From NCBI RefSeq assembly GCF_000002425.4, contig NC_037271.1, positions 12,346,786 through 12,410,785 of the forward strand: 64,000 bases of DNA, written 5' to 3'. Source of the stretch: Physcomitrium patens (Eukaryota; Streptophyta; Bryopsida; Funariales; Funariaceae). Made by a program: the position numbers and the translations under genes. The notes under the pieces were generated by a model. That model saw only the letters and a program-made list of their open reading frames with translations. It was not told where the DNA came from and did no database searches. Shown piece by piece: positions 16,820-62,137 of this stretch. Positions within the stretch are counted from its first letter, which is position 1, and the number at the start of each line of letters is the position of its first letter.

Positions 16820-16822
16820 AAA

Positions 16823-16842
16823 GTGGTGAATCTGAAGTGAAA
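16823..16842 (+). other. Decayed primer-binding site of element D
   Basis: TGGTGAATCTGAAGTGAA follows the LTR end after a few bases. In elements E and F the same place reads TGGTGAACCCGACGTGAA, complementary to the 3' end of plant tRNA-Trp. Element D differs by C-to-T or G-to-A type changes. Confidence 0.7.
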
Positions 16843-16889
16843 GCTTGAGGTGGAAGGTATTGGATTTCATTGGATTTTATTTTTATTTT

Positions 16890-28923: not shown

Positions 28924-28927
28924 TAAG

Positions 28928-28945
28928 TGGTGAACCCGACGTGAA
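28928..28945 (+). other. Primer-binding site of element E, tRNA-Trp type
   Basis: TGGTGAACCCGACGTGAA starts four bases after the LTR. Its complement TTCACGTCGGGTTCACCA is the 3' end of plant tRNA-Trp including CCA, as I recall that tRNA. All 18 bases pair. The same site is perfect in element F at 39018-39035. Confidence 0.8.
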
Positions 28946-28994
28946 AGCTTCAGGTGAAAGGTATTGGATTTTGATTGATTTTATCTTTATTTTT

Positions 28995-31366
28995 ATGAAA
29001 AACGAAAATAAAAATTTTGAAGGATTTTTGGGAGAAGTTTCTGGTGGGGAGTCTTCTAAAGGACAAGGTATGCACATGGATCCGTCTATTGCTAGTTTGT
29101 TTCAAGCCTTCTCATAGTCAATGCAGCAACAACAAAGCAATGATCGAAAGGAAGCTTTGGCAACCAAAGCATTGCAAGCAGTGGTCAATAAAATTGATCA
29201 ATTTGATGGGAGGAATATTTCAAGATATTTAAGATGTTATGTTCGTGAAATGGAATTAAATTGGGTTTCTGAGAGAAAAATGGTTGCACTATTTGAACTT
29301 GCCACAATACCGGAGATAAGGGACCACATTACATCGATTACGGATCGTTGTGGGAATTCATGGGAGGATTTTTCACATGCATTGAAAGACGAATATTTCT
29401 TGGAAGATGCTGATCGCGTTACTAAGAAGCTGTTTCTGGGATGGATTGAACGGCCCAATAAGAATTTGCAAGCAACAGAGCTACTAAGGGAATTTGAGAG
29501 GCAGTACTCTCAATTATCGAAGGTAGAAAAATTGACATTGGAGCCGAACAAAGTTGATCTATTCCTTCAAGCTGCTGATGGAGAATTGCAAGAGAAATTA
29601 GAACCCCTTCTTGAAGACAAAGAAGAAGATGAAGGATTGACAACGAAGTGGAAGAACGTTGAAGATGCGGTAGGGTTGCTTACAAAAAAAAAAAAGAGGA
29701 AGGATAGGAGCAATATTCCAAAAACAGTACAAGCACCCAAAGCTCCAGTACGTACAACACCACCGACAATGCCTACAGTTCAACCTTCGACATCCTTGTC
29801 AAAGAAAGCAGATATGGATATGGAAGAAATTATACGAGGAATGCGAGATCTTCAAATCAAATTGGCAAGACTTGAAGAGAATACTTGTATAAACAATTCA
29901 AAGAATGTTTCAAAACAAGGATATGTACAAAGATGCATTTGGTGTGATGATGCTTCACACACTAGAAAAGATTGCAATGAATTTAATAATATGATACGGC
30001 AGAGAATTATTTGCTGGAAAGATGGGAAGATAGCATTGAAAGATAGGGAGGATCTTCTTCAAACCAATTTTGGCAAGGGAGGAATGAGAGCATTGGTTCA
30101 AGATTACTTAAAAGAGCATGAAACAGTAGTACGAGAAAGTGCAAGTTATGGTGCTAGAGTAGATGATGAAATTGGTGGAAGTACGGAAACTAGTGAGTTT
30201 TGGGCTTCTGCCGTTTCTACAATGCAAGAAGGGGAATTACCTCGAGAAGCGTTATTGAGAACTGCAGCTACAATACGAGGAAGAACAGGTTGGAAGATCC
30301 TGTTGAGTCTCTTTCAGTTCATGCATATATTGCTAAGAGCCAACATGAAGCTTTGATGGAAGAAAAAAGACGAGGAAATTTTGATGATACTAGAGAAGGA
30401 AATTCTTTTAAGAGGCAAACTCGAGGAGACAAGGCTCGGGAGGCAGCTTCACAAGAATTGCTTGTAAAGGATACCTCAGCATCATTGGGAGAAAAAACAA
30501 AGGAGACAAAAGATAAGGGCAAATCAATTGCTTATAAGCTACTCTCTGACATTGAAGCGGCAACAAATTTGAAAGGGGTGTTGGAAGAACGTATATTAAA
30601 CGCTAAGGTGGAATTCACATTGAAAGAAGTCTTGGAAATTACAAAGAAAGAGTTTCATGATGTTAGCATTGACAGCATTAAGCGAAAGAGGCAATTAATG
30701 AGCGAAATTGGAATGAATCATGCTATTGATGCAAGAATATGTAGAGATGAAGAAGAGGTTGATATTGGTTACAAGCAACCAACAAATAAAAAGAATGGGT
30801 ATAATCAGCGAGTACATTTCAAAGATTCTAGTGACAAGGAAATGGAAACTTTGAGCCATCATACTTGAAAGCATTGGGCAAGGGCAACTACTGAGGTATT
30901 GGTGAAGGTAGGAGATATAGAAGAATCAATAGTTGCTTTGGTGGACCATGGTTCTGAAATAAATCTCATGTCTAAAGATCTTTATAAGAAGCAAAAATGG
31001 CCAATTGATATGGAACATGGATGGGCAATACGAGCAGCTAATAACACACGAGGCGAATTATATGGAGCTTGTCCAGATGTCAAAATTCGGATTGGAGATG
31101 TTGCGACAGAGCAACATTTCTTCGTTCAAGATACAACGTCTTATCCGTTGATTTTAGGACAACCTTATATCACGGCAACACGGATGGAAACAAAGGTACT
31201 TGACGATGGTTCTGCTTATGCAAGGGTACGGAGCGAATATGGGAGGAAAGTTGTACAATTTCTAACAGTACCTCCTAACCATGAACGGAATCGAGATAGG
31301 TTGACGGAGAAACCATTGCCAAAGATTGTTGAAGGATTTAAGGATTTTGAAGAGGTACCACTGTAA
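28995..31366 (+). pseudogene. Element E Gag-protease
   Basis: The ATG at 28995 opens MKNENKNFEGFLGEVSGG. A TAG at 29116 is followed by a 411-codon open stretch (29121-30356). It contains the Gag domain and the knuckle CIWCDDASHTRKDC at 29934-29975. A one-base deletion near 30290, relative to D and F, moves the frame. A TGA at 30866 replaces the CGA seen in D. The protease (30899-31366) keeps ALVDHGSEINLMS (Asp codon at 30944) and YPLILGQPYI. The frame ends at TAA 31364-31366, as in D and F. Confidence 0.9.
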
Positions 31367-36596: not shown

Positions 36597-38969
36597 TTAC
36601 AGTGGTACCTCTTCAAAATCCTTAAATCCTTCAACAATCTTTGGCAATGGTTTCTCCCTCAACCTATCTCGATTCCGTTCATGGTTAGGAGGTACTGTTA
36701 GAAATTGTACAACTTTCCTCCCATCTTCGCTCCGTACCCTTGCATAAGCAGAACCATCGTCAAGTACTTTTGTTTCCATCCGTGTTGCCGTAATATAAGG
36801 TTGTCCTAAAATCAACGGATAAGACGTTGTATCTTGAACAAAGCAATGTTGCTCCGTCGCAACATCCCCAATCCAAATTTTGACATCTGGACAAGCTCCA
36901 TATAATTCGCCTCGTGTGTTATTAGCTGCTCGTATTGCCCATCCATGTTCCATATCAATTGGCCATTTTTGCTTCTTATAAAGATCTTTAGACATGAGAT
37001 TTATTTCAGAACCATGGTCGACTAAAGTAACAATTGGTTCTTCTATATCTCCTACTTTCACCAATACCTCAATAGTTGCCCTTGTCCAATGTTTCCATGT
37101 ATAATGGCTCAAAGTTTCCATTTCCTTGTCACTAGAATCTTCGAAATGTACTCGTTGATTATACCCATTCTTTTCATTTGTTGGTTGCTTGTAACCAGTA
37201 CCAACCTCTTCTTCATCTCTACATATTCTTGCATCAATAGCATGACTCATTCCAGTTTCGCCCATTAATTCCCTCTTTCGATTAATGCTGTCAATGATAA
37301 CATCATGAAACTCCTTCTTTACAATTTCCAAGACCTCTTTTAATGTGAATTCCACCTTAACATTTAATATACGTTCTTCCAACACCCCTTTCAAATTTGT
37401 TGCCGCTTCAATGTCAGAAAGTAGCTTATAAGCAATTGATTTGCCCTTATCTTTTGTCTCCTTTGTTTTTTCTCCCAATGATGCTGAGGTATCCTTTACA
37501 AGCAATTCTTGTGAAGCTGCCTCCCGAGCCTTGTCTCCTCGAGTTTGCCTCTTAAAAGAATTTCCTTCTCTAGTATCATCAAAATTTCCTCGTCTTTTTT
37601 CTTCCATCAAAGCTTCATGTTGGCTCTTAGCAATATATGCATGAACTGAAAGAGACTCAACAGGATCCTCCCAACCTGTTCTACCTCGTATTGTAGCTGC
37701 AGTTTTCAATAACGCTTCTCGAGGTAATTTCCCTTCTTGCATTGTAGAAACAGCAGAAGCCCAAAACTCACTAGTTTCCGTACTTCCACCAATTTCATCA
37801 TCTACTCTAGCACCATAACTTGGACTTTCTCGTGCTACTGTTTCATGCTCTTTTAGGTAAACTTGAACCAATGCTCTCATTCTTCCCTTACCAAAATTGA
37901 TTTGAAGAAGATCCTCTCTATTTTTCAATGCTATCTTCCCATCTTTCCAGCAAATAATTCCCTGCCGTATCATATTATTAAATTCATTGCAATCTTTTCT
38001 AGTGTGTGAAGCATCATCACACCAAATGCATCTTTGTACATATCCTTGTTTTGAAACATTCTTCGAATTATTTATAGAAGTATTTTCTTCAAGTCTTGCC
38101 AATTTGATTTGAAGATCTTGCATTCCTTGTATAATTTCTTCCATACCCATATCTGCTTTCTTTGATAAGGATGTAGAAGGTTGAACTGTAGGCATTGTTC
38201 GGGGTGTTGTACGTACTGGAGCTTTGGGTGCTTATACTGTTTTCGGAATATTGCTCCTATCCTTCCTCCTTTCTTTTTCTGTAAGCAACCCCACCGCATC
38301 TTCAACGTTCTTCCACTTCGTTGTCAATCCTTCATCTTCTTCTTTGTCTTCAAGAAGGAGTTCTAATTTCTCTTGCAATTCTCCATCAGCAGCTTGAAGA
38401 AATAGATCAACTTTGTTCGGCTCCAATGTCAATTTTTCTACCTTCGATAATTGAGAGTACTGCCTCTCAAATTCCCTTAGTAGCTCTGTTGCTTGCAAAT
38501 TCTTATTGGGCCGTTCAATCCATTCCAGAAACAGCTTTTTAGTAATGCGATCAACATCTTCCAAGAAATATTCGTCTTTCAATGCATGTGAAAAAACCTC
38601 CCATGAATTCCCATAACGATCCGTAATCGATGTAATGTGGTCTCTTATCTCCGGTATCCTGGCAAGTCAAAATAATTCAACCATTTTCTTCTCAGAAACC
38701 CGATTTAATTCCATTTCACGAACATAACATCTTAAATACCTTGAAATATGCCTTCCATCAAATTGATCAATTTTATTGACCAGTGCTTACAATGCTTTGG
38801 TTACCAAAGCTTTCTTTTGATGATTGCTTTGCTGTTGCTGTATTGATAATGAGAAGGCTTAAAACATACTAGCAATAGACGGATCCATGTGCATACCTTG
38901 TCCTTTAGAAGAACCTCTACCAGAAACTCCTCCCAAAAATCCTTCAAAATTTTTATTTTCGTTTTCCAT
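36597..38969 (-). pseudogene. Element F Gag-protease, longest intact stretch in the family
   Basis: From the ATG at 38969 (MENENKNFEGFLGGVSG) the frame has a few stops in its first third. It is then open for 532 codons (38195-36597). That open part holds the CCHC knuckle CIWCDDASHTRKDC, a long charged linker, and the protease with TLVDHGSEINLMS and YPLILGQPYI. It ends at the TAA (complement of 36597-36599) shared with D and E. The family protease thus has Asp-His-Gly in all three copies. Confidence 0.9.
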
Positions 38970-39017
38970 AAAATAAAGATAAAATCCAATGAAATCCAAT
39001 ACCTTCCACCTCAAGCT

Positions 39018-39035
39018 TTCACGTCGGGTTCACCA
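39018..39035 (-). other. Primer-binding site of element F, tRNA-Trp type
   Basis: The plus strand reads TTCACGTCGGGTTCACCA, identical to the 3' end of plant tRNA-Trp with CCA, so the minus strand is the complementary primer site. It lies four bases from the LTR end. Confidence 0.8.
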
Positions 39036-39039
39036 CTTT

Positions 39040-40334
39040 TGTCGTATTATGTGCTTTCCTGCTCGAGAACGCACCGAGCGTCTGGCTGTAGAAGGTAGTA
39101 CGGAGATTCGCCAATATTCAAGCAGTTTATCGGTTATTGACTGCTGGAATACAAATAACTACAAGAATACACCGTAAATCTATACGGATGCCCTTCGACT
39201 ACTCACCAAAGTCCCTTTTATCCCAGCCGATAGGTCTCTAGACGTTACTGAGAATCCCGAACAACCCAACTTGCTAACCTCCGATACCGCTTTGTACTTA
39301 CAATCTTGTATCCACTAGCTGTCTTGTTAGATTAACCCAATAATTTTCATTCACTCCACATACTCAATCCTATAGACACCCTTTTTATTCTTCAATCACA
39401 GACGTAACTCGATTTCACAAAACAGTCGAGAGTAATCAAACCCACTTCATTAAAAATCCTGATTCACCATTACAAGACTGACTTCAGCAACGATTGCCTC
39501 AGTCTTCCCAAAACTCTATGAAGAAGAAAAATCCAATTCTCTGTCTTTCCTTCCCCGACCCCGAAGCATGAAGCTAGCTCTCTGATCCCTCAAAAAAAAC
39601 TCCCCCCCGATCTATTCTCTCCCCTAACCTTATCCTCTGAATTTCTTCAATCTTCCGTCTTAGATCCGGAATTGGCTCCCACCGTCAAGCTTGGATCCAA
39701 AATTGGCTCTCGCCATCAAGGCTTAGATCCAAAATTGGGTCTCGCCATCAGAGCTTTCTCCTCCGTTTTTACCTTTAAGAAATCTATTTATCAAAAACAA
39801 CGTTCCTTGAAACGGCACAGAGAACAGGACAGCCTGAAACAGAATCAAAACCCCGTAATCGGGACCACATTGAATCACTCGACCAATTTAGGTCTCATAT
39901 TGGATAAGCGTCCAGTAGTAAGACCCGGATTTTCCCGCAATTGGATCAAATTGGTCCTTCACGTAAGATTGGCTGAGGCCCGTAGTAAGACCTGGATTTT
40001 TCCGTAATTAGACTGCATTGGGTTGCCCGGCCAATTCAGGTCTCATATTGGATAAGAGGACCCGAATTGGATTCTTGAAATTGGATCCAATTGGCTCTTC
40101 GAACCAGGCTCATCCGTCGTGTGAATTGGTCCTTTCTCTTCCTGCTGACTCCCGTTATTAGAATCGAACAGAGCATTTCAGTATGCCCCGACTGACTATA
40201 ATGGGGTGACTGTACCTGGCCACTCAGTATTTGTACTGGAGTTGGTCGTTGCTCCCAATATTCGAGGTAACTGAACATTAATAAAAGTCCCCTTTCTTTA
40301 TATTTTCATGGTATACTCGTGTTACAATACGACA
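39040..40334 (-). repeat. 5' LTR of element F, inverted
   Basis: On the minus strand it begins TGTCGTATTGTAACACGAG at 40334 and ends TAATACGACA at 39040, 1295 bp. The outside flank is ATGT (40335-40338), which in F's orientation is ACAT. Confidence 0.9.
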
Positions 40335-40521
40335 ATGTGAATAAAAATTAGAGTATATTACAGATACTATGCGATAAATTTTTAACTTCTTATGTTGGTA
40401 TTGATTCGCAATAGGAGTGCTTCTCGGAGACCTCAAATCTAAAGGGGGGGGGGTGATGTCAAGGACATATACTAGAAAGTTGTAGAAGATTCTAGAAGGT
40501 TCTAGAGAAGCTTTGTAGTTT

Positions 40522-40641
40522 GTAGAAGCTACTTGAGAAGTTTTCAAGCTCGTGGAAGCTACTTGAGAAGCTTCCTAATTTGTAGAAGCTGCTTGAGAAG
40601 CGTCCTAGTTTGTGGAAGCTACTTGAGAAGCTTCCTAGCTT
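40522..40641 (+). repeat. Four 30-bp tandem repeats in the LTR of element H
   Basis: Four consecutive 30-bp units begin GTAGAAGCT or GTGGAAGCT and contain TTGAGAAGCTTCCTAG-like cores, followed by GTAG of a fifth. They lie directly upstream of the TATA box, where enhancer repeats sit in other LTRs. Confidence 0.85.
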
Positions 40642-40645
40642 GTAG

Positions 40646-40653
40646 TATATATA
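40646..40653 (+). promoter_or_regulatory. TATA box of element H LTR
   Basis: TATATATA followed by GGAACCAAG, immediately downstream of the 30-bp repeats. Confidence 0.45.
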
Positions 40654-40898
40654 GGAACCAAGACTAAGGGGATCCTCAGTCTCGACAACACACTTCTTGG
40701 AGCTCTAGCTCACCTCTCTAGTGTTGTTCTTATAATCATCTGATTAATCTAATTCTTGTCGATTCTTCTTGAGCTTCTTGTTTAGATTTCCAGCCAGTAT
40801 GCTAAATTTGTGACACTTAAAAGAGTTTTCTTCTCTAGTATCATCAAAATTTCTTCTTTTCTTTTCTTCCATGAAGATTTCATGTTGACTCTTAGTAG

Positions 40899-40902
<4 letters not shown>

Positions 40903-40943
<41 letters not shown>
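40903..40943. repeat. TA microsatellite
   Basis: About 20 TA units lie inside element G. It produces spurious open frames on both strands. Confidence 0.95.
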
Positions 40944-40944
<1 letters not shown>

Positions 40945-41435
40945 TTAAAAGAACCTCTATATAAACTTTTCAACTTGTTACACCATGTATTGGAGTTGCA
41001 ATTCTCAATAACTCTTCTTAATGCTTCTTTTCTTTTTGCATTATAGAAATGATAGAAGTCCAAAATCTAATTATTTCTATACTTTCATCAAAGTCATCAT
41101 CTATCTTAGTACCATAATTTGTACTTTTTTGTGTTGTTATTCCATGTCCTAAAAAATAGTCTTGAATCAATGCTCTTATATTTTTCTTATAAAAATTAGT
41201 TTGAAGGAAGTTCTTTATATCTTTTAATTCTATTTTTTTATCTTTCTAAAAAATAACTCCATGTCATTAATTTTATTGTAATCTTTCCTAGTATGAGAAG
41301 CATTGTTACACCAAATGTAACTATGTACATACCTTTGTTTAGAAATAGACTTCAAATTATTTGTAGAAGTCTTTTCTTCAAGTCTTGTCAATTTAATTTG
41401 AAGGTCCTACATTCTACATATAATCTCTTCAACTC

Positions 41436-41439
41436 CTAT
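41436..41439. repeat. Target-site duplication, left flank of the DNA transposon (CTAT)
   Basis: CTAT is repeated at 49774-49777. Because the end of the inverted repeat is ambiguous by a base or two, the duplication could be read as CTATA (5 bp) or slightly longer with a mismatch. Confidence 0.75.
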
Positions 41440-41464
41440 AACACAATATTCATTATTTTGAGAG
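41440..41464 (+). repeat. Left terminal inverted repeat of the DNA transposon
   Basis: It reads AACAC then AATATTCATTATTTTGAGAG. It is the reverse complement of 49749-49773 except for one base. No further pairing is seen inside. Confidence 0.88.
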
Positions 41465-42063
41465 GTTTGGTATTTCTCAAAATAAAACAATCAAATAGAA
41501 GTAACAAAAATTGGATTATATGTATAGTCAAATAAGGTCAATGAGGTAGCAATTCAGTACTTGTGATAAGTAATTTCCTTTAAAATGAGAGTTTTTATTG
41601 TTTTGCAAGGTGTCAAATACAGATGTGATTGAAAATAACAATGCTCTAACTTAATCAAATATTTTGATATAACTTTATACAAGTAATTTTTGTGTACATA
41701 TAAAACTATAGTTAAGGAATATCTACAATAGTTATCTATAAAACTAAATCAAACTAAAACCACTTATTATACACTACGAGTTCTACTACCTTTGTCACAA
41801 TACTATAAAATTTTAAAAACTATGTTACCAAAATATGAATATTCAAATCACAATGACAAATTTGTATATTTCATTCATACATTTTTAATATACGATGCAA
41901 GACTCTGCTTGATTATTTCAATTTGTGGAGCCGAAATTTTGATCATGCATTCATTTGTGTCCTTTCTGATTCATGGTGACCACGCTGTCATAAGAACATT
42001 CGTTTCTTACTAAACAAGAGGTTCATTCTCTTCGATCTTCCAATGCAAACCTCTCTCACTATC
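41465..42063. other. Gene-free left subterminal region of the DNA transposon
   Basis: It is AT-rich, with short open frames only. No palindrome copies of the 44951-46115 type occur here. It would contain the 3' untranslated region of the minus-strand gene. Confidence 0.6.
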
Positions 42064-44790
42064 TCAACCTATATAGAACTGTTGTACATCCACACTTCTT
42101 AAGGTTGGATGAAAATACTGAATGAGAATGCATTTTGGCTTCTCAGGATTACAATCTGGGTTCGACAAAGCCCTAGCTATCCACACTGGTTGTATTTCAG
42201 CTTCTGTAGGTCGAATTGCAAGAAAATATCCTTCTCGAACATCTCGACCTACCCTAAAAGATGGTTGTGGGCGACCTCTCAGAGGACCAACATATGGATC
42301 ATCTTCTCCAAATTCCTCATGATCCTCGCCATCATCTGATAATTGATCTGCAAGATTTTCTCTCACACGGGTAATTGGCCAAAAACCTTCTCTCAGAACA
42401 TTACAAGGAATGATTGGTTCATGCAATGCATCCTTCACGTTACGCCAATACACCACCAAATGCTCATACCGTCTTCGATATTCTCCAGTGACATCAACAT
42501 TGCACAAATCCTCCCAATATTTCACGAACCCTAATATTCCTTTCTCAATATCCTCCACACCTCTCATTGTACGTTGTGGAACAGGCGATGGCTCACCACG
42601 AGGCCACAAACTACATCCGTGTGCATCCTCTTTCCAAATTTTAATGCCTGCTCCTTCCTCTCCTAGCCACTCTACATCGGTACAAAACAATTTGTATTTC
42701 ATTTTTGGACACCCTGTTGCATTCAAGTAAAATTTGACTTGTTGTGGTTTTGTGTGACCTACAAGAACTTTACTTTTGTCTAAAATAGATCCAAGTATAA
42801 AATTTTTAAAATCCGGCACCTCCTCGATAAGATGAGGGATAGTGGGAATAGATTCCATGTCCATGAACGACTTCATAAGTGCAGGGATAGTAGGGAAGTT
42901 CTCTTTCTTCAGAAGCATGCTCCATCTTCCAAATAAGGCGTCAATATCGTCATGTGTATGTCCTACTATCATGAAATTTACATACACTTCGCGAAAGATC
43001 CGCTTTGCCACAAGTAGGGACCAAAAAGCAAAAACATATCTATTTTTGTTCTCCCCTGTGGCATTATCCATTTGCACATTCAAAATGGGTGGCAACGGTG
43101 TTGCTCTTACTAATCTCTCAGGTTGTGGATCTAGTGATGTTTTGCACATCTTCGCACCCTTGAGAATGCTACGAAATAGAGCTGTGGAGCCAGAGCCCAA
43201 AAATAATTCTCGGGAAGATGATTTTAGAGGTTCCTCCAAATCACGCAACAACTTTGTCATCGATCCAATAGTATAATTTGAATCATGGGGAAAGATATCC
43301 AATCCATAATGAGCATAACGCACGTCACCGTGTCCATGAGCAATCATGCCTGTTACAAATACATGTAGCTTCACCAAAGCATCCAATTCTTTGTTCTTAT
43401 GTGAAAATACCGGAGATGCAGTTTTGGCATGATCCATCTTGTCATGCATGATTGTCACGCACTCATCGGGATAAGTTTGCGAGTAGTATCGCTTAGCATA
43501 ATAGTACTCCCTATGAGCATGAGCAATACCAAGATGTTTCTCCAACTTCCTCGTCCACTTCATAGCCTGTTCAGATCCTCCAATGGCACCCTTCCTTAGC
43601 TCTTTGTACTTGTCGCAGGTAACACATCGTGCAAAATTATCTCCGGGTCTTTTGACATCGAATTCTGGAAACCTAGATGCTCTGATCTTGCTCAAGTTTG
43701 AAGAAGAGACCTCCCTCAATCCAAAAGCAGTATTAACTTCGTTGATTTTTGGAATTTGATCTTTCCATTGAAAGGTAGCTGGGAGAATCATCAAAACCAT
43801 CTTCTCTCCAGATTTTGTACTGCGAGTACGATGTGGCATGTGATCTGCCTCCTTCTCGAGGATACACTTCAACGTAGCTGTCGCTTGTTCAATGTGCTTC
43901 CTTGGCTTCGGTAATCCAGTGTTGCCATGGTCCCTCGCCTCCCGATTAGCTTTTACATATGCTTGGTAGCGGTAGAATGTTGCTTCTGATACCCCAGAAA
44001 TATGCATCCATGCACGCAAGCACACGGTGATCCCCTCCACTGTCACCATCTTCCGCCCGCTTGCATCTCTATGAACCGCCCTATGCACATCTAACTTCAT
44101 ATGGGCTCTGAACTGGAATGTAGATCCATTATACATTCGCTCGCGGAATGATTTAATCTTCTCTCTTGGAAAAGGCTGCACGCAGTTCCTCATACAGCAC
44201 ACTTTACTTGACACCAAGTTGATAGACTCTTCGCTGAGGAGTTTTTTATACTTTAGAGGTGACTCTTGAGAGGGATTTCGGATACCATTCATATATGGCC
44301 TTTTGGACTTTGAGAGCGCCGAGTTTGCCCGAGCTGCATGCAATTGATTGAAGTTATCCTTAGCCTCGTGGTCGTAGAGACTAGCACCATGGCAATGGAC
44401 TAGCTTTGTAGGCCACGCCACAAGTGCATACACAAGATCTTGGGGGATGTCATCTTGAGAATGAGTTTTGCAAATGTGGACTGCGACCTGAGTGTCACCA
44501 AGAGGACCATTAGCGCCGAGCACAAGATCAGAATTAACACTATGGCATGTACCCTCGCCTACCAATTTTCCATGTACATTATAGAGGGTCACACACTTCG
44601 TAATCCACAGACGCAGAGGAAGTCCTTCGCACTCGGGAACTGCAGGACTAATGGATTCAGCGTCCTCAAAATCATCCCCTGATGAATGAGCCATGTACAC
44701 TTTGTATTCCGAAGCGTTTACGAGTCCTCTAGACAAAAACAACCACTTCATCAAAACGATGAAAGAAACTTTACGCCAACATCCAGACAC
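42064..44790 (-). CDS. DUF7869-like DDD transposase-like protein, 908 codons, intact
   Basis: One frame without stops runs from ATG 44790, or from the internal ATG 44694 (MAHSSGDDF), which I favour because the first 32 residues look like leader. Visible parts: residues 60-135, a compact N-terminal fold (VTLYNVHGKLVGEG ... VAWPTKLV) reminiscent of DUF8039-like domains of plant transposon proteins; 252-281, a helix-turn-helix-like segment (CLRAWMHISGVSEATFYRY); 389-426, a C-x2-C (CVTC) with following histidines, possibly zinc-binding; then an RNase H-like core with TIMHDKMDH (D450/D453), VQMDNATGENKN (D575) and GHTHDDIDALF (D614-D617); and near 850-908 a small C-terminal domain (VWIARAL ... QYFHPTL). 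The spacing suits a D,D,D nuclease acting on the element's ends. The catalytic role is inferred; the integrity of the frame is observed. Confidence 0.85.
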   Translation of the reverse strand: MSGCWRKVSFIVLMKWLFLSRGLVNASEYKVYMAHSSGDDFEDAESISPAVPECEGLPLRLWITKCVTLYNVHGKLVGEGTCHSVNSDLVLGANGPLGDTQVAVHICKTHSQDDIPQDLVYALVAWPTKLVHCHGASLYDHEAKDNFNQLHAARANSALSKSKRPYMNGIRNPSQESPLKYKKLLSEESINLVSSKVCCMRNCVQPFPREKIKSFRERMYNGSTFQFRAHMKLDVHRAVHRDASGRKMVTVEGITVCLRAWMHISGVSEATFYRYQAYVKANREARDHGNTGLPKPRKHIEQATATLKCILEKEADHMPHRTRSTKSGEKMVLMILPATFQWKDQIPKINEVNTAFGLREVSSSNLSKIRASRFPEFDVKRPGDNFARCVTCDKYKELRKGAIGGSEQAMKWTRKLEKHLGIAHAHREYYYAKRYYSQTYPDECVTIMHDKMDHAKTASPVFSHKNKELDALVKLHVFVTGMIAHGHGDVRYAHYGLDIFPHDSNYTIGSMTKLLRDLEEPLKSSSRELFLGSGSTALFRSILKGAKMCKTSLDPQPERLVRATPLPPILNVQMDNATGENKNRYVFAFWSLLVAKRIFREVYVNFMIVGHTHDDIDALFGRWSMLLKKENFPTIPALMKSFMDMESIPTIPHLIEEVPDFKNFILGSILDKSKVLVGHTKPQQVKFYLNATGCPKMKYKLFCTDVEWLGEEGAGIKIWKEDAHGCSLWPRGEPSPVPQRTMRGVEDIEKGILGFVKYWEDLCNVDVTGEYRRRYEHLVVYWRNVKDALHEPIIPCNVLREGFWPITRVRENLADQLSDDGEDHEEFGEDDPYVGPLRGRPQPSFRVGRDVREGYFLAIRPTEAEIQPVWIARALSNPDCNPEKPKCILIQYFHPTLRSVDVQQFYIG

Positions 44791-44810
44791 AAGAGGCAGT
44801 ATTCATACTT

Positions 44811-44830
44811 ATCAGATCGAGTCGATCTGA
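44811..44830. promoter_or_regulatory. Isolated palindrome just upstream of the transposase start
   Basis: ATCAGATCGAGTCGATCTGA is a near-perfect palindrome of the array type, 20 bases upstream of ATG 44790. It differs from the array consensus symmetrically (GATC for GCTC), so the dyad symmetry itself seems to be kept. Confidence 0.6.
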
Positions 44831-44950
44831 TTAGCGGACATGTATGGATGAGAAAAAATTGTACAAAGCAAAATGATGAACCACATTTCAGTGAATGCCA
44901 ATTTCCGAATGGCAGCGCACATCTCAGCACTGATAAGAATACGTGACACG

Positions 44951-46115
44951 TACATCAGCTCGAGTCGAGCTGATAATGGATGTTAGAATTCACTCACAAG
45001 GACGTACCCGACGTCTAATTAAACCAGCTCAACTGAAGTTGATTATGGACATTGGTTCTCCAATACGAGGGCGTAATAGAGCACTCAGAAAATCAGCTCG
45101 ACTCGAGCTGATTCAGATTGTCAGTTATTTAAAGGAGGACAAACTGGACCTCACATAGAATCAGCTCGATTCGACTTGATTCTGGATACTGGTCTTCAAT
45201 AACGAGGACGAACTGGACCTGTCATTGAATCAGCTCGAATGAAGCTGATTCTAGCTGTTAGTTTTCTTTAACGAGGATGTTTTGGACCTCTCAGAGAATC
45301 AGCTCGACTCAATCTGATTCTAAACGTTTATTTTCAGTATCGACGACGTAATACACCTCTCAGACAATCAGCTCGACTCGAGCTGATTGTTGACATTAAT
45401 ACTTTTGAATGAGGACGTAATGGACGTCTCAGAGAATCAGCTCGACTCGAGCTGATTTTAGATTTTTGAAAACAATAAAAATGACGAACTGGACCATTCA
45501 TAGAATCATCTCAACTTAAGCTCATTCTATACAAAAAAATTTAATAACAAGGACGCATGGGACCTTTCAGAAAATATGGACCTCTTAAAGAATCAGCTAG
45601 GCTCGATCTGATTCTGAACGATTGTTTTTAGTACCGAGGACGTAAATTACCTCTCATAGAATCAGCTCGACTCGAGCTGATTGTTGACCTTAATACTATT
45701 AAATGAAGACGCACTCGACGTCTCAGAGAATCAGCTCGACTCGAGCTGATTCTAGACAACAGTTTTCAATAACAAGGACGTATTGGACCAATCAAAAATT
45801 CTGGACCTCTCATAGAATCAGCTCGATTCGATGTGATTCTGAATGTTTGTTTTCAATATCGACGATGTAATACACCTCTCAGAGAATCAGCTCGACTCGA
45901 GCTGATTGTTGACATTAATACCTTTGAATGAAGACTTACTGGACGTCTCAGAGAATCAGCTCGACTCGAGCTGATTTTAGGTGATTGTATTCAATAACAA
46001 TGACGCAGTGGACCTTTCATAAAATCAGCTCTACTCCAACTGATTCTTGACAATAGTTTTGAACAACGAGGACGTATTGGACCTTTCAGAAAATCAGCTC
46101 GAGTCGAGTTGATTT
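44951..46115. repeat. Array of about 17 spaced palindromes upstream of the transposase gene
   Basis: The core is an 11-bp arm AATCAGCTCGA, one centre base, and the arm TCGAGCTGATT. Copies start at roughly 44952, 45024, 45091, 45159, 45227, 45297, 45367, 45436, 45504, 45589, 45658, 45728, 45817, 45887, 45955, 46022 and 46090, a spacing of mostly 67-70 bp (range 67-89). Spacers share GAGGACGTAnTGGACCTCTCAGAG-like words. Cores are better conserved than spacers. Position and symmetry suggest a binding platform for a dimeric protein, perhaps the transposase, but this is inference. Confidence 0.92.
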
Positions 46116-47382
46116 CCATAGCACATATTATAAATTATCAGAGAGACACAGTTATAAAGCGAGTCATCTGCACTATTGCGGAATTGTATGGGTACGTGTT
46201 ACTGTAGCAGGATAAGATTGTATCGAATTCTGGATGAACAGTATTATATTGAAAAAAAATGCCCCTCCGCATCATTAGGTCATTGCAGGACCTCACTCGC
46301 CGAAAATGTAATAAACGAGAGCACAAAGAGAAGACTAATCCATACATTACTCTTGCTGGGGGATGACCGCAACAGCCCAAACGGCTGGACATGAAGACGT
46401 ACAAAACATAAGAAGAAAACCAACACAATGGGCAACATCGGAACCCGCTTCAATTCAGACATGGAAGCTCACCTAAAAATTGGAAATTGCAAGTACAGAG
46501 AATGAGAGCAAAATTAATTCTAGTGCTCGTGCATTATCAATCGTAAGTAGACAAACGAAGGGATGTTCGAAGGGCATACCACTTGGACACTGGAGGTCGA
46601 CTAAGCCGCCAAATCAAAGAACGTAGCTAGTGTGCGAGCAAAGAAGAATGCAAAACACAGGATTGACATCGGTAGAACTGACTCTGCGGGAATGCAGTCA
46701 ACGCAGCCCACCTACCCTGGGCACGACGTTATCCACCGTCGATCCTCTACAGCAGATCTGAACCGTCCATCGCAATAGACAGGGGCAACGCCAAGGATCC
46801 AGGCACGGTTCGATAGTTGGGTGTCGAGGGTATGTTGCTGTAGGGCAGGACTCCGTGGAGAATTGATGCTGACAAGACATCAATCGGGATGTGGGATGCG
46901 GATTTCTAAAACGTTCATATTTCAAGTTCAATTTTGTATGCTACTTCATATATCAATTATCTTGCTATGACATTTTATTCTTTGATAAGTGATAAAATGA
47001 TTATATGAAAGAAGGACAAGTGAATTACTTGTTCGTTTAATCCTTCATTGCAAATGTCTGCATACCTCTAAAAGTAAATTTGATTCAGATATTTTATGTG
47101 TCGATATGTAATCATCTTAAATGCATAGCATTGACTATATTTATACGATTATGTCATAAAAGAAAAACTAAAATAAAACATATTAAGTAATAGTCCTTGT
47201 ATTATGCATATCTTGTATAAATTATTGCGCATGTCAATAATATCAACATTCGTTAAATTGAGTCTTTTCATAGTCTTAATTTAATACTGATCTTATATCT
47301 GTAATTGATTTTTTGATTGATCTTATATTTTTAATTGAAATTTTTATTATAGATGGAAAAGTTATCCTCGACTTGAGATTAA
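46116..47382. other. Gene-free stretch inside the DNA transposon
   Basis: 46135-46930 has mixed base composition with short open frames on both strands, none recognisable. It includes a GC-richer block at 46690-46850 that could be promoter-like sequence. 46930-47382 is strongly AT-rich. I find no gene here. Confidence 0.5.
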
Positions 47383-47803
47383 TTTATAAAAAGAAAGGAT
47401 AATTTAAAATAATAAAGGATAATTTATAAACATGGTATGAATATATTATGGAATTTTGAAGTTTGTAGGTTAATGTGAGTAGTATAAGTAATCCGTTGTC
47501 GTGGGGTTAGTCACATTAGTCACATTAGTCACATTTGATTTGGGAACTTCAAAATTCCTTATTTTATTCATGTACTAAAAGTAAACTATTCATTAGACAT
47601 TCAAAATGAATGAATGTCTTGAATGTGATACTTGAGTAATTAATTAGTATTTTTTTATTCACATTGATTCAAGTTTTGAGAATGAAATGGAAGAAAAGGT
47701 AGTATTTGCAATGACATGAATGGTTTTTTGATTAAGAAATTGGAGTAGATGAAAAAGGTTGGAAAATTTAAAATAATCATGTAAATTAAAATTATCCTTT
47801 TTA
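47383..47803. repeat. Fold-back structure with three TTAGTCACA repeats in its loop
   Basis: GGAATTTTGAAGTT (about 47451-47464) pairs perfectly with AACTTCAAAATTCC (about 47545-47558), and weaker pairing extends outward on both sides. AAAGGATAAT-type words at about 47393-47430 are mirrored near 47790-47803. Between the arms lie three tandem copies of TTAGTCACA (about 47506-47535). It may be a small MITE inserted in the transposon or a structural part of it. Confidence 0.5.
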
Positions 47804-48232
47804 AAAAACTTTACATATACAACCAAATGCAATCCACTGATTGTATTAGTTCGACCTGCTAGTGTGAAGAATTGGTTTTATTTAAAGGCATGTTTTGTTT
47901 TCAATCATTTGGATTTTGTTGTGAAATGTCAGAAAACAGTCATTATACACTTTCTGTACACACATTATAGGAATGATTTGAAACTGAGATTTTATAGAAA
48001 AGAACGTCGTTTCTCTCCAACATTTCCCATCCTGTTTCCCAGCAGTTCCCGATGAGTTCCCGTGAAAACGACGTCAAAGCTCCCGACGAGTTTCCGCCAA
48101 AATCACGCAAGGGAACACGGCCGGGGCACGTGAACGCATGTGCTCAGGGTGGGGGTTAAACAACATTACCGCCTACAAATTTCTCCTCTTTCTCTTTTTT
48201 GTTGTGTACATCGCTCCTAGCGCATTTTCTCT

Positions 48233-49332
48233 GTGCTTTGTCACGTTGTCGTGACCCTCACTTCTCTCCTCTGCTTTGCTGTTCCTCACTTCTTGTTTGC
48301 TGTTCCTCACTTCTCTTTTGTTGTTCCAGCTATTTTATTGCACTGTCAATCCCAGGTGACGAGGGCAGGAGCTTTTGACGCCACAGAGAGTTGTTTTGAT
48401 TCCCCTGTGCGTGACGCTGCCTACGTTCCTGTAAGTGCCGACTTGTATTTGTCTACGGTGTCGAATTCTTGGGTCTCTTCCTCTTCGTTTTCAATCACAT
48501 TTGTGTTGGAGGGTCTTCTCCTAATTATAATTAGGACAGCCATGCACGTATTTATTGTAAGAGTACGTATCTCCACAGAGGACTGTGATTCAGATCGAGT
48601 CGAGCTGATTTGTCAATGTATTGGATCAATGGACATTTGTTTACTTGTCATGGATGTGGAAATAGGAGTTGGAGGTCATGTGCAATTCTCTGATGGATAG
48701 TGTTGTATAGTGTTTCATGCAACGTAGTCGTGATGTACCATGTATCTTATTGCAACTGTATTTCCAGTTCTTGATTTATGTGTTTACATCCATGTCAGTA
48801 CTTCACGATAGTACGAGAATGTTGTGGATGACAAGTACAAGTGTTTGTATGGATAGGTAATCGGATTTTTCGTTTCAAATTGTATTGATCTGAAATTTTT
48901 GATGGATTGAAACAGGTCCGTCGATTGCAATGCGAAGTATCTGCAGATTCCATCATGGACTACGACCAGAATGTTCTTCTCAGCACAGGAAACTTCCTTT
49001 GCTCTGCTCCTTCTGTCAATTCGACTATGGACTTCTCTAAGAAGCCTGTTGACGATGGGGTGGTGGATAGTCCTTTGGAGAAGAAAGTGCAGTTGTCTAA
49101 CCTGGACAGGCCCTCTACACTGCGTGCAACGGAAGTTGAGGCTCCGACCATGTCCCTATTAACTATTGTAAGATTGATGCAAAAAAAAGTATATGGAGAT
49201 GCTAATTATGACAAAGTGTTGCCGAAAGTACCGGATTATCTTCGAGATGACAACCATGAGATACTTCGTAATGCAGCAAAGTCTACATCAGCACAACAAG
49301 ACATAAAGCCCTTTCTACATTGCAATATTTGA
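48233..49332 (+). CDS. Second gene of the DNA transposon, two exons, function unknown
   Basis: The model is exon 1 48233-48430, a 485-bp intron with GTAAGT donor (48431) and AG acceptor (48914-48915), and exon 2 48916-49332. The two open frames join in phase 0 without adjustment, giving about 204 residues. Exon 1 encodes a hydrophobic N-terminus (FAVPHFLFAVPHFSFVVPAI) that could be a signal or membrane anchor, but it contains a DNA repeat and may instead be 5' untranslated sequence. Translation would then start at ATG 48954 (MDYDQNVLLSTG). The C-terminal part (SLLTIVRLMQKKVYGDANYD, VPDYLRDDNHEILRN) looks like ordinary soluble protein. I do not recognise the family. It is divergent from the transposase gene, with the palindrome array between them. 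Confidence 0.5.
48587..48610. promoter_or_regulatory. Isolated palindrome-like copy in the intron of the second gene
   Basis: CAGATCGAGTCGAGCTGATT (48591-48610) matches the array core with one arm changed. It is about 2.5 kb from the array and, under the two-exon model, falls inside the intron. Confidence 0.55.
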
Positions 49333-49748
49333 AAAGGAAATGTGAGCCATGACATTGTTGTAGAAATAACTACTCCAATTCATTGTGCAATGCTATTGTG
49401 CTCAAATCTTGTAGAGCACAGCAACTTGACTACTGATACAAATTTCAATAAATTTCAATGGGGTGTAATCGCTGAGTACAACTGCGATAAGCCATTACAA
49501 CTCTGAAGTGTACATTGCATGGCTGATAGTTGATTATTTCTGAGGTTGTAGATGAGGTTTTCTAAGTTTGCAAATTATTTAGTAAGTTCTACATTCACGA
49601 CATGTATATTTGGTGATTATTTGAAATAAAATTCTCTACATTTCAATTTGAATTCATTGTACTCCACCAATTTTCAATGTTCCAGAAGGACCTCTACTTC
49701 ATGCTTTTGGTTTTTAAACCTCCTCAACACTCTCAATTCACTAGAATT
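49333..49748. other. Gene-free right subterminal region of the DNA transposon
   Basis: It holds the likely 3' untranslated region of the second gene. Several TTTCAAT words recur (about 49441, 49451, 49648, 49671), which could be subterminal binding repeats, but they are short and AT-rich. Confidence 0.45.
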
Positions 49749-49773
49749 CTCTCAAAATAATGAATATTGGGTT
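49749..49773 (-). repeat. Right terminal inverted repeat of the DNA transposon
   Basis: This is the partner of 41440-41464; read on the minus strand it starts AACCC then AATATTCATTATTTTGAGAG. Confidence 0.88.
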
Positions 49774-49777
49774 CTAT
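49774..49777. repeat. Target-site duplication, right flank of the DNA transposon (CTAT)
   Basis: This is the second copy of CTAT; see 41436-41439. Confidence 0.75.
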
Positions 49778-50745
49778 ATCTGTTTTCTTTGATGTAGATA
49801 ATAGAGATTGAATAATAGGCATTGTCAATCATGTTGTATACACTTGAATTTTAGGAGCTTATACTATTTTTAGAATATTAATCCTATCTTCTTTTTTTTC
49901 TCTCAATTTAGAAGTAAATTCACAACATCTTCATTATTTCTCCACTTTGTTGTCAATTCTTCATCTTCTTCTTTAATTTGAAGAAGCAACTCTAATTTTT
50001 TTAATAATTCTCTATTAACAACTTGAAGAAATAATTCAACCTTGTTTGGTTCCAATGATAACTTTTCTATCTTTGATAATCAAGAATAATTTCTTTCAAA
50101 CTTCCTTAATAGCTATGTTACTTATTAATTCTTGTTAAGCTATTCAATTTATTTTGAAAATAATGTTTTAGTAACATGATCAATGTCTTCCAAAAAACAT
50201 TCATCTTTTAATGTATATAAAAATGTCTTCCATAAACTCCCATAATGCTTCATAATTGATGTAATATGTTTCTTTATCTTTAATACTATAGCAAGTCTAA
50301 ATAGCTCAATCATCTTCTTCTTAGAAATCCAATTTAATTCTATTTCCTACACATAATATCTAAAATACTTTAAAATATCTCTTCCATCAAATTGGCCAAC
50401 TTTGTTAATTATTGCTTACAATGCTTTGGTTGCCAAAGCTTCCTTGTAACCATTGCTTTACTATTCCTACATAGACAATGTAAAAGCTTGAAACATACTT
50501 GCAATGGTTGGATCCATGTATATATCTTGTCCTTTAATAGAAACTCAACTTGAAGCTCATTCTATAGTTCCTTCAAAACTCTTGCTATCATTCTCTATTA
50601 AATTAAAATAAAAATGAACAAACTTCAACACATCTTATCTCAAGCTTTCATGTTGGATTTACTACTTATGTTGTATTACGTGTATTCTTGCTTGAAAATG
50701 CACCAAATATCTAGTTGTAGAAGGTAAGTAGAAATGCAATAATGA
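49774..50745 (-). pseudogene. Element G, second half: Gag N-terminus, primer site and LTR edge
   Basis: The minus-strand sequence continues element F homology from about 38149 to 39095: Gag N-terminal region to about 50600, then a decayed tRNA-Trp primer site (TTCATGTTGGATTTACTA at about 50647), then the LTR edge TGTTGTATTACGTG at 50669. Similarity fades after about 50745. Nearly every CG of F is TG or CA here, so this is an old, heavily mutated copy. Confidence 0.85.
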
Positions 50746-59608: not shown

Positions 59609-61954
59609 CTAACTCTGCATAGTGATAGCAATGGGACTTCGTACGAAATGCTTTCCGTCTGACCATTCCAAAGATCCAAATTTCGTCCCTGCTCGAACAA
59701 TGTTAAGGGGATTATTCGAAGTCACTGTGAGAGTGAAGCTCTTGATCTCGTTTATCTCACTGAAGGTCAATGTCCCCGGGTCAACGGTGATTGTGTAACC
59801 ATCGGGAGATGTAGTTTTGGCCGTGTAAGTGGATTTTGGAAACCCAACGTTGGTCACCTTCCTCGTGAAACTCTTTGAGTTGCCTTGCAGGAGCATGCGT
59901 GGCTTAAAAACGGCAGAGAACGAAGGATAGTTCATATCCTCAATCTCGACTCTGGGATTCGGACAGGTGACTGCATTAGCGGTGAATCTCACGATGATAT
60001 CCACCGAGTAGCCAATTGCGCACAAGAAATTCACGTAATCCTTGGTGGCCATATCATACACCAAGCCTGGATCCAATGCGTTAGCCGTGGCATGCCCAGA
60101 GCCAAAGTCAAAGGGAGTTGCACTGATGCCCGTGACTTGATCCGTTATTTTTCCACGCGTGTTGTCGATGAGAGAAGCCGAGGTCATGATGGCGGACTTG
60201 ATCGCTGAGGGGCTCCAATCCTGGTATTTGCTTTTCAGTAAAGCTCCCAATCCGCTGATGTGAGGGCATGACATGGAAGTTCCAGAGATGATATTGAATT
60301 TCACCCTTCTGGTGTCAGAAGCTAAGGGGCTTGGGCCTGCAGCACCAGTCCAAGCCGCGAGGATGTTTACCCCTGGGGCAGTGATATCAGGTTTCAAAAC
60401 GTTGGAATTTAGGGGATTTGGTCCTCGTGAAGAGAAGGATGCCATTGCAGGGGCAGGTGTGACGCCCAGTTTTGTTCCACTGAAGGAAAGCTTCGCAGTA
60501 GGAGCGGGGGTAGATGTGATGTAGGCCAGGGTGGTGCTTCCACCTGCCGCGCCAACCATTACAGCAGGCAAGAGGTGGCTGTCGGCAATGAGTCCTTCTC
60601 CATCCACACCAGAGTTCGCGAGAATCATACCTGCGCCTCCGGCTGAGCGCACCACATCCCCTTTCGCGACGCGGCCATTTATTCCTCGTTGGCAGAGAAC
60701 AATCTTGTCCTTCACCTTCTCCGGATCCAACGAGTTGTCTGTGCACTTGGCACCTTCTGTTTTATTTTTTAGGGCTGCATCACCTCCAAAAACCAATGAT
60801 TTCATAACCTCAGCCGCACTATTGTCACTGTACAGCGATGTTCCGCTGATGATCTTGCCGTCACCAAGCTCGACGTCAGCAGGGAATTCTCTGTCTACGG
60901 TGCTTGCTCCTACAGTCATTACCCAGGGGGCATTGTTCTGGACCGTACCCGGCCCCGGCCCAGAATTTCCAGCCGAGCAAGACACAAAGATACCACTCTT
61001 CGCAGCTCCGAAAGCTCCGATCGCAATCAAATCTACTTCGTACTTTTCAACCTCACCACCCACGGAGAGAGAGATTACGTCCACCCCATCGGCCACGGCT
61101 GCCTCGAAACCTGCCAAGATGTCAGAGGCGAAACACCCTTGGCTCCAACAAATCTTGTAGACTGCGACTCGTGCCTTCGGCGCTATACCTTGTGCAATTC
61201 CAGCAGCAAGTCCATTCAGGCTGGCTCCGTTCACAGGCGATCCGGCCGCTGTGGACGCCGTGTGAGTTCCATGTCCCTCAGTGTCCCTTGGGGATCTCAC
61301 TTCAGTAGAATTGTCAGCTATGGGTCCCGCGACCGCCTCATACCCGGCGGAGAAGTATCTGGCGCCAATAAGCTTCTTGTTACAAACCTCCCTGGTAAAG
61401 CTCTTACCGGTCTGGCACGTTCCTCTCCAGCGAGCTGGAATTGGCCCAAACCCCACGTCATTGAAGCTCTCACTCTCTGGCCACACGCCTGTGTCTAAAA
61501 CACCAACAATCGTGTCACTTCCGTAATTGCTTTCTGGCCATAGCCCGGAGGAGGTACTCAAGCCTATGAACCCAGGAGTACGGGTAGTCTGGGGGAAATA
61601 CTGTTGATCACGGTAAACCGCCATCACATCATCTCTCTGCATTAGGGCGTCGGCTTCCTGGGAAGTAAGAAGGGCCGTAAACCCACTGAGGGCATGCCCA
61701 CCGAAGACATACTTCAAGCGCTCTTGTGACATTTCGTATGAGATCACAGTCGAACCCTGTGACACTGCCTGAATCATGGAGGCGTACGTTGTCGAAGCAT
61801 CTTCGAGAGTGTTCATGGAACCACTTCGACTGCTCGAGCTCACCTGAACAATATATGTCGTTATTTCCACATTGAGACCTTCGACGGCTTCACCCATTCC
61901 AGCCATGAGGACCCATATCCCCAGCAGTGCCAACAACCTGGGTAACTTCCCCAT
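59609..61954 (-). CDS. Subtilisin-like serine protease (plant SBT1-type), intron-free, complete
   Basis: I chose ATG 61954, giving 781 residues, because a signal peptide follows at once (MGKLPRLLALLGIWVLMAGM). The open frame runs 61 codons further up to 62137. Domains by residue from 61954: signal peptide 1-25; inhibitor I9 propeptide about 30-115 (EITTYIVQV ... VMAVYRDQQYF); S8 catalytic domain about 135-600 with Asp154 (VLDTGVWPES), His228 (GHGTHTAS), oxyanion Asn330 (SAGNSGPG) and Ser560 (SGTSMSCPH); a PA insertion about 390-485; and a C-terminal fibronectin-III-like domain about 670-781 (MNYPSFSAVF ... SPIAITMQS). All catalytic residues and the length are typical. The product would be secreted and self-processed. 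Many plant SBTs lack introns. Substrate cannot be inferred. Confidence 0.95.
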   Translation of the reverse strand: MGKLPRLLALLGIWVLMAGMGEAVEGLNVEITTYIVQVSSSSRSGSMNTLEDASTTYASMIQAVSQGSTVISYEMSQERLKYVFGGHALSGFTALLTSQEADALMQRDDVMAVYRDQQYFPQTTRTPGFIGLSTSSGLWPESNYGSDTIVGVLDTGVWPESESFNDVGFGPIPARWRGTCQTGKSFTREVCNKKLIGARYFSAGYEAVAGPIADNSTEVRSPRDTEGHGTHTASTAAGSPVNGASLNGLAAGIAQGIAPKARVAVYKICWSQGCFASDILAGFEAAVADGVDVISLSVGGEVEKYEVDLIAIGAFGAAKSGIFVSCSAGNSGPGPGTVQNNAPWVMTVGASTVDREFPADVELGDGKIISGTSLYSDNSAAEVMKSLVFGGDAALKNKTEGAKCTDNSLDPEKVKDKIVLCQRGINGRVAKGDVVRSAGGAGMILANSGVDGEGLIADSHLLPAVMVGAAGGSTTLAYITSTPAPTAKLSFSGTKLGVTPAPAMASFSSRGPNPLNSNVLKPDITAPGVNILAAWTGAAGPSPLASDTRRVKFNIISGTSMSCPHISGLGALLKSKYQDWSPSAIKSAIMTSASLIDNTRGKITDQVTGISATPFDFGSGHATANALDPGLVYDMATKDYVNFLCAIGYSVDIIVRFTANAVTCPNPRVEIEDMNYPSFSAVFKPRMLLQGNSKSFTRKVTNVGFPKSTYTAKTTSPDGYTITVDPGTLTFSEINEIKSFTLTVTSNNPLNIVRAGTKFGSLEWSDGKHFVRSPIAITMQS

Positions 61955-62137
61955 TCTATTCGCGAACCTGGAACAAAATGGCACCCCGCATGAGTTCACA
62001 TTGGCCAATAATTGAAGTTTAAAAGTGAAACTCATGATAAGTGACTGCAGGAAGAAAAGTGATGCATGCATGTGCCTAGAGAACTCAACACAGCTAAAAT
62101 TCGACCATACGGCGTCCAACAGCAACTTTTCATGCAT
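61955..62137 (-). other. Upstream in-frame extension of the subtilase gene
   Basis: The subtilase frame stays open for 61 codons above ATG 61954 and has alternative starts at 62137, 62071 and 62035. Using them would bury the signal peptide inside the protein, so this is more likely 5' untranslated sequence. Confidence 0.6.

Follow-up and report, generated by a model that had tools for sequence, protein, structure and literature searches.

A family of giant DNA transposons in the moss Physcomitrium patens is represented by a shortened copy in the stretch examined here, a window of 64,000 nucleotides (NC_037271.1, positions 12,346,786 to 12,410,785; contig C19 in this analysis). The element occupies positions 41440–49773 of the window (8,334 bp). 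It is read as a non-autonomous, internally deleted member of a terminal inverted repeat (TIR) family with a full length of about 15.6 kb; the family carries a gene for a putative DDD transposase (gene 1), a large second gene whose function is uncertain (gene 2) and a phosphatase gene, and its palindromes would be sites for a dimeric protein. The probability of this reading is put at about 0.8.

Ends, insertion site and copies

The window copy is bounded by 25-bp TIRs (AACACAATATTCATTATTTTGAGAG / AACCCAATATTCATTATTTTGAGAG), the left one at 41440–41464 (+) and the right one at 49749–49773 (−), which agree at 24 of 25 positions. Its termini read AA...TT, with AACAC/AACCC at the outermost bases, and both flanks carry the target-site duplication CTAT (41436–41439 and 49774–49777). 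The surrounding sequence is the Gag region of an older retroelement, split into a left part (40816–41439) and a right part (49778–50726). When the flanks are rejoined with a single CTAT, they align without a gap across the junction to three related retroelements of the window (37551–39048, 18308–16811 and 30412–28915; identity 70.7–71.5%), and the element was thus inserted into this older sequence. A first-pass annotation, made from the letters alone, had pointed out the inverted ends with their one mismatch, the CTAT duplication and the exact, cleanly rejoining split of a Gag remnant; each of these observations holds.

The same annotation had called the element a DNA transposon and expected a genome search with its ends to return further copies. 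This is the case. The first 81 bases match at least 18 places in the genome and the last 101 bases at least 16, both counts being lower bounds that include the window copy. In the 17 other copies, the 25-base left terminus recurs with no mismatch (11 copies), one (4) or two (2). Both ends could be located for 15 copies, again including that in the window, and 13 of these have a perfect 4-bp duplication whose sequence varies from site to site (AAAG, TAAA, TAAG, ATAG, CTAA three times, TTTG, TTAT, TACT, ATTA, AAAT and CTAT). Terminal inverted repeats common to dispersed copies (18 left and 16 right ends) and a target-site duplication of fixed length (4 bp in 13 of 15) are the marks of a TIR transposon; with its own ends, its duplications and its copies at many different sites, the element belongs to a real DNA-transposon family.

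Nine of the 15 two-ended copies measure 15.3–15.7 kb; those on C1 (15,674 bp, duplication AAAT) and C11 (15,533 bp, duplication ATTA) serve as references below. The remaining sizes are 8.3 kb (window), 13.6 kb (C24), 14.6 kb (C23), 16.9 kb (C8), 24.0 kb (C5) and 30.5 kb (C21). The copies on C5 (L021) and C21 (L015) have perfect 4-bp duplications despite their length, and presumably owe their excess size to insertions. On C26, two left ends stand face to face (6483095 on the + strand and 6504472 on the − strand), 21 kb apart, which is less than two full elements; the two copies have few private substitutions (nine each) and possibly form a nested or inverted pair. In the copy L022, the match to the family ends near element position 8,900.

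Over 3,399 positions of the gene-1 region, 29 substitutions (0.85%) are private to the window copy; across the 18 copies the proportion ranges from 0.26 to 1.14%. C-to-T and G-to-A changes together make up 312 of the 456 private substitutions. The family appears to have spread in one past burst and then decayed in a manner that fits cytosine methylation.

Internal deletion of the window copy

The element of the window had been described as complete and autonomous, with a divergent second gene beside the first. The comparison with other copies gives a different picture. Of the 17 other left-end copies, 16 have shared family sequence that runs beyond the window breakpoint (48505–48510); the seventeenth (L015) is interrupted by an insertion at element position 5370, its right end lying 30.5 kb from its left. 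The window copy corresponds to the first ~7,071 and the last ~1,270 bases of the C1 copy, with ~7.3 kb missing in between and only a few shared bases at the joint. The lost segment holds gene 2, nearly all of the phosphatase (NIF) gene and the second and third palindrome arrays. What is left to the right of gene 1 includes a pyrimidine-rich stretch (48221–48510, +), which full-length copies have ahead of gene 2 and which may be the 5′ leader of that gene, and a small frame, F (48889–49332, +, from stop to stop), that is open here as it is in the four full-length copies read. What had been taken for a divergent second gene is just this upstream sequence of gene 2, which the deletion has brought up against the final 1.27 kb of the element.

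It could be argued that the 8.3-kb form is a shorter type of its own, mobile as such rather than a broken long element: both ends are present, it carries a duplication of its own, only one of the 18 copies has a longer open frame for gene 1, and copies that were not read (the unpaired right end described below, or any above the lower-bound counts) could share its junction. However, 16 of 17 other copies lack the junction, since shared sequence goes past its breakpoint, and gene 1 is truncated in the window copy, so that a separate short type is very improbable. That the 8.3-kb copy is a complete element is ruled out by these 16 copies together with the nine of 15.3–15.7 kb; it is a shortened and probably dead remnant of the ~15.6-kb element.

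Genes of the element

Gene 1 lies on the reverse strand. Counted from the start of an intact 939-residue relative to a premature TGA it spans 42064–44694, and a remnant of its last ~62 codons follows behind the stop at 41880–42063 (lower limit approximate); the open frame extends further upstream, as far as an ATG at 44751. This frame runs for 912 codons from stop to stop and 895 from its first ATG. The first-pass annotation had listed it as an uninterrupted gene of 908 codons, and it is indeed open over such a length, yet it is truncated: the product is 95% identical to the 939-residue P. patens protein P0001 over 876 residues and ends 63 residues short of it, at what appears by eye to be a TGG-to-TGA change, with more stops downstream. 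The longer relative rules out that the window copy contains gene 1 as a whole. An unbroken gene 1 is present in one of the 18 copies, that on C11, whose product is identical to P0001 (UniRef A9RIR0); the remaining 17 each carry one or more stops or frame breaks in it.

The nearest relatives of the gene 1 protein are P. patens proteins, and it is a clear member of the DUF7869 family (PF25273, E 2.7e-44), to which Pfam assigns no function. Three aspartates, in the motifs HDKMDH, QxDNxxxxNKNR and GHTHxDIDALFG, are strongly conserved among 74 aligned relatives; with gapped rows excluded, D421 (P0001 numbering) is found in 73 of 73, D543 in 62 of 68 and D585 in 64 of 64. Such a pattern is expected of a DDD transposase, and the DUF7869 protein is the best candidate for the transposase of this element. 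The earlier proposal that DUF7869 proteins are transposases thus gains ground, while the autonomy claimed for this particular copy is not supported. The family here becomes linked to TIRs, duplications and the spread of copies, and this tie gives a domain without assigned function a testable role. None of three proteins compared with NCBIfam matches a model there. Among viral contigs, 18 matches to the sequence pattern contained no relative; a scan of genome contigs gave 47 pattern matches with one relative, on a contig in a cyanobacterial metagenome-assembled genome (MAG).

In full-length copies, exons B, C and D lie on the strand opposite gene 1. They are read as one gene, gene 2, with at least three exons: B and C are spliced together in the P. 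patens gene model P0161, and both B–C and C–D show a 5′ and a 3′ splice signal. The exon limits are those given by open frames, the one gene model and the splice signals. None of the 98 relatives of exon C (E 1e-3) has a precomputed Pfam domain. The end of exon C (PGDxVxSxFxGxKxxCAAxV), running on into exon D, bears a weak resemblance to motif I and the following part of amino-methyltransferases. Searches against solved structures returned nothing significant, either for the exon-C profile (PRMT7, E 1.4; RGS1, E 0.03) or for a 74-residue piece of gene 2 (PH1915, E 1.2).

Gene 3 follows gene 2 and is a NIF/FCP1-like phosphatase frame (PF03031, E 1.5e-16), a clear member of the NIF/FCP1-SCP1-like family that differs from its relatives in sitting inside a transposon. 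The C11 copy has open frames for gene 1, for exons B and C and for the phosphatase; its exon D contains one stop.

Internal palindromes

The non-coding DNA of the element is populated by near-identical palindromes. In the window copy, 18 sites resembling TCAGCTCGANTCGAGCTGA, mostly at a 69-bp period, form an array upstream of gene 1 (44809–46115), and a solitary site lies near the right end (48587–48611), which bears out the palindrome array of the first-pass annotation. A stricter scan finds 11 sites in the element and none in the remaining 55.7 kb of the window. Full copies contain 41–46 such sites (four copies counted), some isolated and the others in arrays that repeat every 69, 44 or 31 bp, and the number of array units differs between copies. 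All 41 palindromes of the C11 copy fall outside the assigned exons, though the exons account for 51% of its length. The genome has 238 exact sites, against none for the reversed pattern used as control; among the exact sites listed, all 50 lie inside four family copies, two of them in the long C5 copy.

Palindromes begin immediately after the 5′ splice site in two introns of gene 2. Those that precede exon B, like the 18 upstream of gene 1, may belong to leaders, promoters or introns. The central base is free, two types of half-site are combined in 6–7 mixed sites per copy (CT at pair 5), and some changes occur symmetrically on both sides (TCAGATCGAGTCGATCTGA, and TTAGCTCGA...TCGAGCTAA in the related locus L029, described below). 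These three features make putative DNA sites for a dimer the best reading of the palindromes.

Related elements in a second lineage

Relatives of the element occur in a second source. The contig CADCWO010000071.1 (L029), filed under the cyanobacterial MAG uncultured Synechococcales AVDCRST_MAG81, contains a DUF7869 frame of 52% identity (query residues 16–932 matched), together with nine sites that agree at 13 or more of 18 positions with a symmetrically changed form of the palindrome (TTAGCTCGANTCGAGCTAA), three of them at 17–18; shuffles gave 0.18. Exon C is found on three contigs of the same MAG. Several contigs of a moss-like transposon with intron-bearing genes (L029 and L051–L054) stand within a cyanobacterial MAG that is part of a species-level genome set. 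Its nearest relatives point to a moss as the source, and the moss-like contigs of AVDCRST_MAG81 are apparently eukaryotic contamination.

C243 is one of these three contigs with exon C. Its two overlapping loci (7,230 bp in total) hold B, C, D and the phosphatase in the order of the P. patens element, at a protein identity of about 40% (44% for the phosphatase, E 4.8e-66), and a frame behind the phosphatase resembles F by eye. Eight palindromes match the P. patens form at 17–18 of 18 positions and a ninth is weaker: two lie in the B–C intron, three in the C–D intron, two between D and the phosphatase, and the rest behind the phosphatase, where one falls within a frame that has no stops and whose exon limits are unclear. 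L051 has one palindrome each in its B–C and C–D introns; L053, a more distant piece, has none. The 44% identical phosphatase in the same order rules out a recent capture of this gene. Since the order is kept in a second, apparently moss, lineage, the phosphatase and the large gene 2 are suggested to serve the transposon rather than to be chance cargo.

Two further comparisons extend to relatives at large. The palindrome is encoded in the read-through tails of 13 of 40 exon-C relatives under a strict peptide pattern, which was fixed after the tails had been seen under a looser one (20 of 40); shuffled tails gave a mean of 0.07 and protein bodies 2 of 593 windows. Seven contig sizes coincide exactly between 65 DUF7869 and 61 exon-C entries, as expected of genes that travel together; long contigs predominate in both sets, since the majority of shorter ones are omitted, and one source is represented by 120 of its 326 matches.

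Proposed mode of action and alternative readings

In the proposed scheme, the DUF7869 protein, as a putative DDD-type transposase, would bind the 25-bp ends and excise the element, and joining to the target with a 4-bp stagger would generate the 4-bp duplication. The window copy would have landed in old Gag sequence in this way; its loss of ~7.3 kb, before or after insertion, is most simply explained by interrupted repair or an end-joining deletion. The full element comprises at least three gene units, with the putative transposase on one strand, gene 2, possibly containing a degenerate DNA-methyltransferase-like domain, on the other, and the NIF/FCP1-like phosphatase. The near-constant palindrome, placed in non-coding DNA before, inside and between the genes, would bind a dimeric protein, itself encoded by the element, whose role is to control or mark that element through expression, methylation state or end pairing; the products of gene 2 and of the phosphatase gene may target chromatin or transcription of the element itself. 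A palindrome that is confined to the element, as far as sites were listed, and found in the same introns of a second lineage points to an unusual internal control system. Gene targeting is routine in P. patens, and such a system can be tested there.

Several observations weigh against this scheme. Two of the 15 two-ended copies depart from the duplication rule (L009, flanked by CTAT/CCAT, and L023, with none), no right end could be located for the left ends L014, L022 and L024, and a right end at C15:6330911-6331011 has no counterpart among the left-end matches and is taken to be a truncated or rearranged copy. A sequence search of gene 1 against solved structures gave nothing significant, and an RNase H fold of its product is putative. 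For gene 2 as a DNA N6/N4 methyltransferase, no match to N6_N4_Mtase (PF01555) above cut-off was found: spliced C and D of one relative reach 16.8 bits against a cut-off of 26.7 (E 0.0068), one of 43 exon C relatives matches at E 0.029, and the 74-residue piece with the supposed motif does not match at all. Among these 43 relatives the weak Pfam match seen most often is to Tugs, a domain of another kind (five relatives, best E 3.6e-4), and it is below cut-off in the member shown. Finally, the palindromes are not at the element ends, where transposase binding sites usually lie.

The palindromes can also be understood without a protein. A selfish minisatellite, spreading without function through non-coding DNA, would account for the tandem repetition at regular intervals of 69, 44 and 31 bp and for the varying number of units. 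What the arrays have in common, however, is the palindrome and not the period; isolated single sites exist, changes occur symmetrically on the two sides, and a second contig, apparently from a moss and with proteins about 40% identical, retains palindromes in the same introns, so that this explanation is improbable. Slightly more credible, although still unlikely, is that the sites act as RNA hairpins, in splicing or the production of small RNAs. Their start right behind the 5′ splice site in two gene 2 introns would suit such a role, and stems of about 11 bp are conceivable by eye. Against this, the central base is free, and the 6–7 mixed sites would break the RNA pair but suit two DNA half-sites, although this is not decisive. 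Sites for a dimeric protein remain the preferred reading.

Relationship to known superfamilies

CACTA/En-Spm transposons share with the present element a large size, several genes and many short repeated motifs bound by protein; they have CACTA termini, 3-bp duplications and subterminal motifs, whereas the motifs are internal here. The termini AACAC/AACCC and the 4-bp duplication rule out this superfamily. Ginger elements require TG...CA termini and TIRs of 40–270 bp, as opposed to AA...TT and 25 bp here; Tc1/mariner elements have a TA duplication, in place of varied 4-bp duplications; and Mutator elements have one of 7–12 bp (all according to the sections available of PMC10741241). These three groups, too, are rejected on ends or duplication.

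Among the closest described counterparts is Sola, in particular Sola1 (Bao et al. 2009, through the available parts of PMC10741241 and PMC9033089). Sola elements have a DDD transposase and 4-bp duplications, are found in P. patens, and measure 2–9 kb, some exceeding 15 kb, with ends of 11–1124 bp (PMC10741241); 'Physcomitrella Sola1' is listed in a table of PMC9033089. The element would then be of a known kind, P. patens Sola (Sola1), described in general terms in 2009, and DUF7869 would be the Pfam name for its transposase. A 4-bp duplication, as in Sola, was found here, and TIRs, three conserved aspartates that would fit a DDD transposase, occurrence in P. patens and a size above 15 kb also agree with the published descriptions, as far as these were accessible. 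On the other hand, the comparison is one of descriptions and not of transposase sequences, curated bivalve Sola1 elements average only 5.4 kb (PMC10294476, seen in part), and the phosphatase, gene 2 and the palindromes are not mentioned for Sola in the available parts of PMC10741241 and PMC9033089. The name Sola does not occur in the main text, as far as accessible, of a study of expressed P. patens elements (PMC7466625). On these descriptions, membership of Sola is somewhat the likelier case, and the 'unnamed type' of the first-pass annotation becomes doubtful in view of the 4-bp duplication, the three aspartates and the Physcomitrella Sola1 entry.

The opposite view is that DUF7869 elements form a separate, undescribed superfamily of giant moss transposons, combining the transposase with a methyltransferase-like protein and a phosphatase of the carboxy-terminal domain (CTD) type as a module, and with a palindrome code in leaders and introns that is bound by an element-encoded dimer and sets expression or methylation. 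This is considered rather unlikely. In the literature searched, from which most subscription papers are missing, no mention of DUF7869 and no description of the palindromes or of this gene set was found. The motif itself matched 39 papers, of which the 20 listed have no bearing on it, and the subject of palindromes in transposons yielded a single paper, on piggyBat.

Neighbouring features of the window

The window contains at least four related gypsy-like retroelement copies in both orientations (15993–18308, 27592–30412, 36597–39097, and 38440–41439 continued at 49778–50726). The last of these is the host of the transposon, and its Gag region is ~71% identical to the three other copies. At 59609–62137 on the reverse strand, an open frame of 842 codons, read by eye, resembles a subtilisin-like protease; it is probably a host gene bordering this retroelement-rich stretch.

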